From assembly GCF_000327065.1 (NCBI RefSeq), contig NC_019936.1, positions 3,376,001 to 3,440,000 of the forward strand: a stretch of 64,000 bases of DNA, read 5' to 3'. A program made the position numbers and the translations under genes. The DNA comes from Stutzerimonas stutzeri RCH2. GTDB lineage: Bacteria; Pseudomonadota; Gammaproteobacteria; Pseudomonadales; Pseudomonadaceae. The first letter of the stretch is position 1. Each line of letters opens with the position of its first letter. Below the pieces are notes generated by a model that worked only from the letters and a program-made list of their open reading frames with translations, made no database searches and was not told the origin of the DNA. Positions 37,187 through 38,836 of this stretch are shown piece by piece.

Positions 37187-37298
37187 TTCGATCAGGTGCC
37201 AGCGCGTCACAACCAACCGACCAGAAATGAATGCCTGGGCATAAGGGGCGGGGATGCGCCCCGGCGGAGGTACGCCCCCGCTGATCGAATTTCGATCA
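37187..37298 (-). promoter_or_regulatory. putative operator: repeated TTTCGATCA upstream of the SDR gene
   Basis: A perfect inverted repeat TGATCGAA (37282-37289), T, TTCGATCA (37291-37298) lies 140 nt upstream of the SDR start, and a single half-site TTTCGATCA (37186-37194) lies 44 nt upstream. Dimeric repressors of the TetR or GntR type bind such sites. No regulator gene is adjacent, so the cognate protein is unknown. Confidence 0.45.
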
Positions 37299-37359
37299 TC
37301 TGAAGCGCGGCCGCGCCATCACGAGCCTGCAATGGCATGTACCCAAACAACTCACAGAG

Positions 37360-37382
37360 TTTTCCACAGCACCGGTGGATAA
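37360..37382. repeat. degenerate DnaA-box pair (module D)
   Basis: TTTTCCACA (37360-37368) and GGTGGATAA (37374-37382) form two inverted DnaA-like boxes, each one mismatch from TTATCCACA / TGTGGATAA, with a spacer shorter than in the three 35-bp modules nearby. Confidence 0.5.
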
Positions 37383-37470
37383 AGGAGCACGTGAAGCAAC
37401 TGGCTGTGCCGCCCTACCTCAGCGACAAAAGTTTTGCAAAGCCTTCTACCATGCGGCCTGGAGTCGCATC

Positions 37471-37483
37471 CAAGATATTGAGT
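37471..37483. promoter_or_regulatory. candidate IHF binding site
   Basis: CAAGATATTGAGT matches the IHF consensus (reverse form YAANNNNTTGATW) with one mismatch and is followed by an A-tract TAAAAAAT, the usual IHF arrangement. It lies between DnaA-box modules D and A. Confidence 0.4.
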
Positions 37484-37544
37484 AAAAAATGAGCACTCTG
37501 CGCAAAGGCACGTGCCGCTTCGCTTGCAGACGTTGCTCCCAAGG

Positions 37545-37579
37545 TTATCCACAAAGGCGCACACAGCTCCCGGGGATAA
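37545..37579. repeat. 35-bp DnaA-box pair module A
   Basis: Perfect consensus DnaA box TTATCCACA (37545-37553), 20 nt, then GGATAA (37574-37579). GTTATCC/GGATAAC are inverted. ACACAGCT lies in the spacer at the same place as in modules B and C (GCACAGCT, ACACAACT). Confidence 0.75.
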
Positions 37580-37690
37580 CAAAGCCCCCTTGCACATAGC
37601 CGAGTGCTATTGCGGCAATGCCAAGAATCTAAGGGAACTGAATCTATGCTCCCTTTAGCATTGAGCCATCGCTTCTCACGGAGAGTGCCC

Positions 37691-37768
37691 ATGTCCAGCC
37701 TTAACCTGATCGAACGCCTGTTCGCCAATTACGCCTGTGCCGCCAGTGGCGCATTGGCCGAGCGCTAG
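37691..37768 (+). CDS. 25-residue ORF, possible leader peptide or microprotein
   Basis: ATG 37691 reads MSSLNLIERLFANYACAASG and a few more residues to a TAG. GGAG lies 7 nt upstream, a good ribosome site. A 10-bp inverted repeat (CGCCAGTGGC, 37741-37750; GCCACTGGCG, 37787-37796) overlaps its end and could form a hairpin before the LOG gene 72 nt later. The N-terminal half can form an amphipathic helix. It may be a regulatory leader or a small membrane-associated peptide; no family recognised. Confidence 0.45.
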   Translation: MSSLNLIERLFANYACAASGALAER

Positions 37769-37840
37769 CCGCACGGAACCCGCTTGGCCACTGGCGCGGC
37801 CCGGCGTACCCTTCCGCGAGCCCAACGAGCGGAGTAAACG

Positions 37841-38428
37841 ATGACCTTGCGTTCCATTTGCGTTTTTTGCGGCGCCAGCCGCGGCACCAATCCGATCTAT
37901 GAACAAGCTGCCCAGGACCTCGGCCGCACGCTGGCCGCCAATGGCATCCGTCTAATCTACGGCGGCGGAGCTGTCGGGCTGATGGGCGTGGTGGCAGACG
38001 CCACCATGGCTGCAGGCGGTGAGGTGATTGGAATAATCCCACAGAGCCTGAAAGATGCCGAGGTCGGCCATACCGGCCTCACTCGCCTTGAGGTGGTAGA
38101 TGGGATGCACGCGCGCAAGGCGCGTATGGCAGAACTGGCGGATGCCTTTATCGCCCTGCCCGGCGGGCTGGGTACGCTGGAGGAGCTGTTCGAGGTCTGG
38201 ACATGGGGTCAGCTCGGCTACCACCCCAAGCCGCTCGGGTTGCTGGATATCAATCATTTCTATAGCAAGCTCAGCCACTTCCTCGACCACCTCGTCGATG
38301 AGGGCTTCGTGCGGCCTCAACATAGGCAGATGCTGCAGCGTAGCGACCAGCCGCAGGCGCTCATCAAGTTGCTCGATGCCTGGCAGCCGCCGGCGCATAG
38401 TCGTTGGGATAAAACGGCGCCGCAGTAA
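37841..38428 (+). CDS. LOG family protein (cytokinin riboside 5'-monophosphate phosphoribohydrolase)
   Basis: This 195-residue TIGR00730 Rossmann-fold protein has the signature [16 protein letters not shown] (about 106-121) and [20 protein letters not shown], the nucleotide-binding and catalytic loop containing R98-type and E residues. LOG enzymes release free bases from nucleoside monophosphates, giving cytokinins in plants and probably nucleotide salvage in bacteria. The 'lysine decarboxylase' annotation often used is wrong. It sits between regions rich in DnaA boxes. Confidence 0.92.
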
Positions 38429-38507
38429 ATCCTGAAGACACCGATCAAAAAGCATCCAACTCGCCGCAGGCCGTACGTGATCAGGCCTGCAGCGTTGCGC
38501 CCCCATG

Positions 38508-38542
38508 TTATCCACATAGGAATGCACAGCTGGCGTGGATAA
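38508..38542. repeat. 35-bp DnaA-box pair module B
   Basis: TTATCCACA (38508-38516), 20 nt, GGATAA (38537-38542). TTATCCAC and GTGGATAA are an 8-bp inverted pair. GCACAGCT lies in the spacer. A perfect palindrome GCTCTAGAGC (38544-38553) directly follows. Confidence 0.75.
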
Positions 38543-38678
38543 AGCTCTAGAGCGCTGGCAAAGCCGTCGCGAAAGTCGATTTTTTAGCCCTTTCGTGTCG
38601 CAGGAGAGCAAAAGCACAAATTTTGATCAACTGCTCGAAACTCTAGTGCCGCGGCGCCTATAGAAACTGTTACAGCCG

Positions 38679-38713
38679 TTATCCACAGGACGACACACAA
38701 CTATCGTGGATAA
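38679..38713. repeat. 35-bp DnaA-box pair module C
   Basis: TTATCCACA (38679-38687), 20 nt, GGATAA (38708-38713), again with TTATCCAC/GTGGATAA inverted and ACACAACT in the spacer. It is the third copy of the same layout, 124 nt before the DUF2726 start. Confidence 0.75.
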
Positions 38714-38836
38714 GCACTCAAACGAACGAATCAATCGGCTCACACTCACAACCTTTAGGTTCGATGATGCGGGAGGCTTATACATGCACCAGTTGAGATG
38801 TCTTCGCCATGTGCCGTTACGCCAGGGAACTGACTC

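Follow-up and report, generated by a model that had tools for sequence, protein, structure and literature searches.

Outside its origin of replication, the chromosome of Stutzerimonas stutzeri RCH2 carries a patterned cluster of DnaA boxes around a gene of the LOG family. What could such a cluster do there? A sequence-only reading of the surrounding 64-kb stretch (64,000 nucleotides, here called the window) had suggested a replication-control site resembling datA of Escherichia coli. datA needs IHF and promotes ATP hydrolysis on DnaA; DARS acts in the opposite sense, by reactivating DnaA. Our analyses support the view that these clustered, patterned and conserved boxes outside oriC are most likely a replication-control site. 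An oriC itself would be adjacent to dnaA, and the array lies 1.16 Mb from that gene. Its geometry, however, is that of DARS rather than of datA. Judging from sequence comparison and from analogy to E. coli, we assume with a probability of roughly 0.7 that the locus is a Fis-assisted multi-unit DARS array that would turn ADP-DnaA into ATP-DnaA.

Four units make up the array, all on one strand and each about 100 bp long, with a Fis-type site (-65 to -51 relative to the core), an inverted repeat (-44 to -16) and a 35-bp core (Table 1). Within the core, boxes III and II form a direct pair 3 bp apart and box I is inverted. The four three-box cores fall within 1.4 kb, and the units are intergenic in the window, where they have SDR, LOG and DUF2726 genes as neighbours. 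In units 2 to 4 the strong box is box III, with perfect consensus, and box II is weak; in unit 1 the strengths are ordered as in E. coli. Compared pairwise, the four units share 32–48% identity in their 50-bp spacers.

Units 2 to 4 coincide in position with three modules of the sequence-only reading. A degenerate pair that it had placed at 37360-37382 is likewise present, but is part of a full module (37348-37382) that keeps the register with four mismatches, and supplies its boxes II and I. The CACA that it had found common to the spacers is indeed shared, although it is not mere spacer: by its sequence, it is a third DnaA site, box II, in each module. C18, A19, C20 and A21 are kept in 50, 52, 53 and 51 of 53 unique modules, and CACA was absent from the search pattern. 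The proposed hairpin potential exists because boxes III and I are inverted; position 29, however, pairs with A7 in only 22 of the 53 modules. With this core pair broken in the other 31 modules and no clear excess pairing at -44 to -16, a hairpin or terminator was rejected.

Table 1. Coordinates of the array features in the window; entries marked C1 lie elsewhere in the same genome.
Feature	Position	Strand	Description
Unit 1, DARS-type core	37348..37382	+	4 mismatches, in register; leads four cores in 29/30 genus loci
Unit 1, boxes			III CAACTCACA, weak; II TTTTCCACA (37360-37368), strong; I inverted TTATCCACC (37374-37382)
Unit 2, DARS-type core	37545..37579	+	III TTATCCACA; II GCGCACACA, weak; I inverted TTATCCCCG
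Unit 3, DARS-type core	38508..38542	+	III TTATCCACA; II GAATGCACA, weak; I inverted TTATCCACG
Unit 4, DARS-type core	38679..38713	+	III TTATCCACA; II CGACACACA, weak; I inverted TTATCCACG
Unit 1, Fis-type 15-mer GATCGAATTTCGATC	37283..37297		starts 65 bp 5' of core; mismatches: 0 to symmetrised, 2 to published consensus
Unit 2, Fis-type 15-mer GAGTAAAAAATGAGC	37480..37494		starts 65 bp 5' of core; 0 mismatches to both consensuses
Unit 3, Fis-type 15-mer GATCAAAAAGCATCC	38443..38457		starts 65 bp 5' of core; mismatches: 0 to symmetrised, 1 to published consensus
Unit 4, Fis-type 15-mer GCACAAATTTTGATC	38614..38628		starts 65 bp 5' of core; 0 mismatches to both consensuses
Unit 1, inverted-repeat element (-44..-16)	37304..37332		partial match
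Unit 2, inverted-repeat element (-44..-16)	37501..37529		clear
Unit 3, inverted-repeat element (-44..-16)	38464..38492		CCGCAGGCC-N11-GGCCTGCAG; clear
Unit 4, inverted-repeat position (-44..-16)	38635..38663		diverged
LOG-family gene (TIGR00730, PF03641)	37841..38428	+	between units 2 and 3; bystander
Core pair ("twin"), 213 bp apart	C1:816881 and 817094		adjoins adenosine-deaminase-like and YigZ-like genes (named by eye)
Single E. coli-like core, strong box II	C1:3563370		after Lon-like protease gene (named by eye)

The box TTATCCACA alone occurs 23 times in the genome versus 16 times for the reversed control. In the window it has exactly three copies, none beyond those of the modules, as the sequence-only reading had noted, and 11 copies at up to one mismatch versus a shuffle mean of 4.7 (1 of 100 shuffles reached 11). 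The longer pattern TTATCCACA-N{15,20}-GGATAA has three matches in the whole 4.6-Mb genome in either orientation, all of them at the array, and its reversed control has none in the same genome. With the N20 spacing, 300 first-order Markov simulations of the window gave 0 matches versus 3 observed. A window scan with the 19 fixed positions of TTATCCACA-N8-CACA-N8-GGATAA, at up to four mismatches, returned exactly four places (37348, 37545, 38508 and 38679).

The same 19 core positions were used to scan the DARS1, DARS2 and datA regions of E. coli K-12. The DARS1 intergenic region contains TAATACACA-tgg-TTATCCACA-ggaat-AGTGGATAA, which spans the same 35 bp and differs from the core at two positions, with no insertion or deletion; the next best match in the 3-kb DARS1 region has seven mismatches. 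In the DARS2 intergenic region, core-like matches with three, four and five mismatches were found, and the best of them has the same 35-bp geometry. datA has in common with the array that its DnaA boxes are clustered outside oriC, but the best core match in its 4.5-kb region has six mismatches, against two for DARS1 and three for DARS2, and is without the inverted box I in register.

According to the accessible part of PMC5742627, a DARS core consists of three boxes, spaced equally in both sites, of which box I points opposite to boxes II and III. Three boxes, fixed spacing and an opposite box I are what the array displays, although box II of units 2 to 4 is weak, in contrast to E. coli. ChIP-seq data in an excerpt of PMC11317965 indicate that E. 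coli DnaA prefers box pairs 2–3 bp apart in vivo. In our alignment, the DARS1 pair of that excerpt and the pair of one DARS2 peak correspond to boxes III and II; the other DARS2 pair is read there one base off. From the DARS1 and DARS2 scans, this definition and the ChIP-seq pairs, we hence read the window modules as DARS cores, running from box III to box I. By sequence, the kinship of the array to DARS is strong.

Within the genus, the exact module pattern is matched at least once in 53 of 55 congeners and nowhere in G008 and G009. Outside it, the pattern turns up in one of the 5 genomes from the family's other genera and in 4 of the 36 from other families in the order, with one reversed-pattern control match in the exact-pattern genome table. 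Among the 30 best LOG matches (own genome and 29 congeners), 29 loci have four cores in the same orientation at up to four mismatches and one locus has three; in the 29 loci, the cores lie near -490, -295, +670 and +845 from the LOG start. Mean top-base frequencies over these loci are 0.99–1.00 in box columns and 0.67–0.68 in spacer columns for units 2 to 4, and 0.90 and 0.73, respectively, for unit 1. Box-column conservation is partly built in, since the cores were picked by those columns, and the related genomes in the conservation counts are not independent. In a LOG-anchored alignment of the window with 18 of 28 Stutzerimonas-type loci, long constant runs fall on the cores, among the ten rows listed. 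The named loci related to this one come mainly from Stutzerimonas; nearest is a record titled Pseudomonas songnenensis, whose LOG protein is 98% identical.

At up to two mismatches, a core occurs in 384 of 398 genomes of the family (56 being the own genome and congeners), with eight reversed-pattern control matches. In the class, 111 of 185 genomes have one (own genome and one congener included), with one control match among the matches listed; these class matches are unsorted by locus, and some may not be DARS. Many other Gammaproteobacteria (loci L207-L267) carry a core of the E. coli kind, similar to TCATCCACAAAGTTATCCACAGnTTTTGTGGATAA.

In the own genome, six cores at up to two mismatches lie at three places, namely three in the array, a pair and a single core. 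Among 15 genus genomes (own included), 14 have an array-like cluster, 12 a pair 212–214 bp apart and 13 an E. coli-like single core, sameness being judged by sequence and spacing and not by synteny; in 3 of the 15, one core may be a remnant of the pair. Unit number differed among the loci read, with one, two, four and five as examples. Five cores in a row are found at locus L085 (1470-2590, genome G249), where 4.4 tandem copies of a 257-bp unit match at 95%. G008, G009, L149 and L122 form a small lineage of the genus without exact modules, and G009 retains two cores, spaced 213 bp, away from LOG. Since G008 and G009 are without an exact module, the array is dispensable in that lineage.

On the chromosome, the array lies about 21–26% away from dnaA, on either arm, in 13 genomes (calculated by hand, with nine exact and four rounded lengths; G011 and G016, where the array is present, and G006, G028 and G032 are left out of this figure). 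It is intergenic and, judged by this distance from dnaA and not by a mapped terminus, lies between oriC and the terminus. In E. coli, DARS2 lies 21% and DARS1 33% from oriC. This position is only consistent with DARS and not evidence of selection, because inversions around the origin keep any locus's distance. Two stretches around dnaA (3.5 and 15 kb) contained no core at up to four mismatches.

The LOG gene itself can be separated from the array. The LOG ortholog is missing from 13 of 55 congeners, whose best match, at E above 1e-12, is just a remote paralog; all 13 keep exact modules, so LOG is not the target. These modules are clustered in most of the LOG-less congeners (G013 has one module and one elsewhere; G015 was not itemised), and G048 and G034 have four cores in ~660–760 bp, still flanked by the SDR gene on one side and the downstream genes on the other. 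In G009, LOG adjoins a DUF5924 gene and no core at up to four mismatches occurs in 8.5 kb. We also compared 80 named LOG loci at up to three mismatches. A core is present in 26 of the first 28, which we label the Stutzerimonas type; the exceptions are L149, with none, and L153, with none but cut off upstream. In the other 52, from Pseudomonas and allies, the 2.5 kb fetched contained a core in 4 cases and none in 48. The reversed-sequence control over all 80 gave 0. Presence of the array at the orthologous LOG locus, as the sequence-only reading would have it, is hence borne out by the best LOG matches, but not by G008 and G009, nor by most LOG loci beyond the Stutzerimonas type. A 25-codon open frame (MSSLNLIERLFANYACAASGALAER; 37691-37768, + strand) precedes LOG; it has no Pfam match and may encode a leader peptide or small protein. 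In 14 of 18 related loci, a frame 5' of LOG contains the motif LFANYA.

Upstream of the cores, the published Fis consensus (GnnYAnnnnnTRnnC) peaks at one offset, -65: of 112 unique array units of the genus, 28 match it there exactly and 96 with at most one mismatch. These are the 116 units of 29 four-core loci minus duplicates, and Fis counts were halved, the motif being palindromic. We also searched with GNNYRNNNNNYRNNC, which we take to be the symmetrised form of the Fis-type consensus. Of 154 unique cores of the genus, from all loci fetched, 139 have it exactly at -65, as do 53 of 71 other Pseudomonadaceae cores; the means at other offsets are 0.96 and 0.41, and the largest counts 11 and 4, respectively. 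The Fis-type site played no part in choosing the cores. Among the 18 other-Pseudomonadaceae cores without a -65 site, 10 are off by one base; in 3 of the 71 cores the site starts at -66. Beyond the family, 12 unique cores from other orders and class-level loci have the site at -66 in 7 cases and at -65 in 0, and in 50 other-Gammaproteobacteria cores -66, one base farther out than in Pseudomonadaceae, is the top offset, exact in 17 (mean 0.13 per other offset). This class sample is not a random draw, because its 51 cores, one of them too short upstream and dropped to give 50, were picked at up to one mismatch among the matches listed; two near contig ends were left out and three were already among the loci. 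Neither DARS1 nor DARS2 of E. coli carries a Fis-type site at -65 or -66. Fis (NF001659, above cut-off) is encoded in the own genome beside a DusB-like gene, and DnaA and an Hda-like second match are encoded as well.

For IHF, the consensus at up to one mismatch showed no preferred offset across the 112 units, and an A-tract previously proposed as an IHF site turned out to be the Fis-type site of unit 2. Between Fis-type site and core, a GC-rich inverted repeat with a consensus of about CTGCARGCC-N11-GGCYTGCAG is conserved at -44 to -16. As in a DARS flanking region, the Fis-type site and this element thus stand at fixed offsets. Excess pairing over independent columns at -44 to -16, summed over nine pairs, was 0.20 in the genus, -0.04 in other Pseudomonadaceae and 0.09 in the class sample; with no clear excess, the element looks like protein half-sites and not like a folded strand. 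With a profile of positions -50 to -1 built from Pseudomonadaceae units only, window units included, the E. coli DARS1 flank takes rank 3 among 20,712 positions; the DARS2 flank comes 904th and that of the second DARS2-region core-like match 18,537th. The E. coli DARS1 flank resembles the conserved GC-rich inverted repeat at -44 to -16.

These observations bear on what else the units might be. As passive high-affinity DnaA sinks, they could set initiator availability without any nucleotide exchange, and a perfect-consensus box III in units 2 to 4 and several loci per genome would suit such a role. Pure titration, however, needs neither the fixed 35-bp three-box layout nor a Fis-type site kept at a single offset family-wide, and we regard it as unlikely. 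Still somewhat less likely is the datA-like reading, in which the cluster would titrate DnaA and, with IHF, promote ATP hydrolysis. Four three-box cores within 1.4 kb are compatible with it, and chromosomal DnaA boxes titrate DnaA in E. coli according to a part of PMC12371093. Geometry nevertheless speaks against it, as the best match in the datA region has six mismatches and misses the inverted box I, and so does the IHF consensus without a preferred offset; on layout and IHF we have rejected it. Moreover, E. coli datA is near oriC (excerpt of PMC4585315), at variance with the array's distance from dnaA in the 13 genomes.

The sequence-only reading had further considered regulation of LOG and DUF2726 by the boxes. 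The intergenic position of the window units and the regulation of E. coli promoters by DnaA through paired boxes (PMC11317965, in the excerpt) would fit DnaA- and Fis-controlled promoters of these genes. Modules outlive LOG, though, in all 13 LOG-less congeners, with the cores staying put in G048 and G034, and LOG outlives modules, given the 48 of 52 non-Stutzerimonas-type loci without a core in the fetched flanks; the other cores of the own genome adjoin other genes. We therefore rejected this regulation, which seems highly improbable. A dispersed intergenic REP-like repeat family, another earlier suggestion, might explain several copies and the tandem copies at L085, but a whole-genome count located the exact pattern only at the array in the own genome. 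With merely six cores at three places there and unit spacers of such low identity, a repeat family was rejected as well and is hardly conceivable.

If the locus acts as a DARS array, ADP-DnaA would load on boxes III and II, and box I would hold DnaA in the opposite orientation, so that a head-to-head AAA+ contact with box II could expel ADP. Apo-DnaA would leave and then bind ATP. Fis, bound ~62 bp or about six helical turns upstream, might bend the DNA and tie the unit to fast, exponential growth. The swapped affinity would suggest loading from box III into box II, and several weaker tandem units may stand in for one strong IHF-driven DARS2. What the sequences show directly is the anatomy of the units, their uniqueness within the genome, their constant spacing, their recurrence over the family and their likeness to E. 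coli DARS1; binding of DnaA and Fis, nucleotide exchange and an effect on initiation timing at the array are what we infer by analogy. Some observations stand against DARS. The order in units 2 to 4 is opposite to that of E. coli, where box II is the strong one, and a head-to-head contact of boxes I and II would hence rest on a weak box. E. coli has no -65/-66 Fis-type site, and the essential IHF sites of DARS2 are without counterpart in the array. Furthermore, the DARS2 flank ranks only 904th, and the array is dispensable in the G008/G009 lineage.

We may speculate, with less than even confidence, that Pseudomonadaceae regenerate ATP-DnaA via DARS1-type units multiplied in arrays, with four at the main locus of the genus and two and one at other loci, that Fis switches them where E. 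coli DARS2 uses IHF plus Fis, and that box III has taken over from box II as the strong box. The inverted repeat could then be the site of a DARS factor that E. coli DARS1 also uses, and unit number and distance from oriC might set the initiation mass of a species.

DARS is in print for cholerae (PMC6090056) and for many proteobacteria (PMC10380432), as far as excerpts of both papers go. The literature on DARS and DnaA that we searched, partly available as excerpts, yielded no account of DARS in Pseudomonadaceae; part may be in print in a 2009 paper cited by PMC6090056. Nor did it yield a description of a multi-unit array, a -65 Fis-type site or the inverted repeat, and these three appear to be what is new here relative to the DARS already described in other Gammaproteobacteria. 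ADP-DnaA recycling beyond E. coli and its relatives is little known, and Pseudomonadaceae gain candidate DARS loci at base resolution. The array defines a ~100-bp unit of three parts with fixed spacing, in which Fis is the likely activator and the inverted repeat is shared with the DARS1 flank. Loci that differ in unit number provide a natural test of what determines when initiation occurs. As DARS-like switches appear to recur across Pseudomonadaceae, replication timing becomes directly testable there.

How does the array compare with known systems? In B. subtilis, several DnaA-box clusters lie outside oriC and DARS1, DARS2 and datA are absent, according to an excerpt of PMC13220808. E. coli DARS2 (rppH-mutH intergenic, 455 bp) has, like the array, a site for a bending protein next to its core on the side of box III. 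For the DARS2 core, the reverse-strand match of L094 (TCTTACACC...) was rejected in favour of the adjacent match, which is flanked by IHF and Fis sites. This three-mismatch match has IHF-consensus sites at -87 and -71, about where Pseudomonadaceae have the Fis-type site, and a Fis-type site at -125. We presume it to be the published core because its order of IHF and Fis sites fits the one in the available part of PMC4245941 (core, IBS1-2, FBS2-3), where Fis takes part at DARS2. In the window array, no IHF sites corresponding to IBS1-2 between core and FBS2-3 were found, and with no IHF-consensus peak at any offset in the 112 units we do not file it as DARS2.

E. coli DARS1 (bioD-uvrB intergenic, 101 bp) has one core only, with a strong box II and a weak box III, whereas the array is multi-unit with the order swapped. 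The DARS1 flank that we liken to the array is the one on the box III side, which may not be the side of the ~50-bp regulatory region of DARS1. Since its neighbours are SDR, LOG and DUF2726 genes and not bioD-uvrB, we consider the array to be DARS-type and not a DARS1 ortholog. Both DARS1 and the array units are intergenic, and at 66 + 35 = 101 bp a unit is exactly as long as DARS1 is said to be in the accessible part of PMC5742627.
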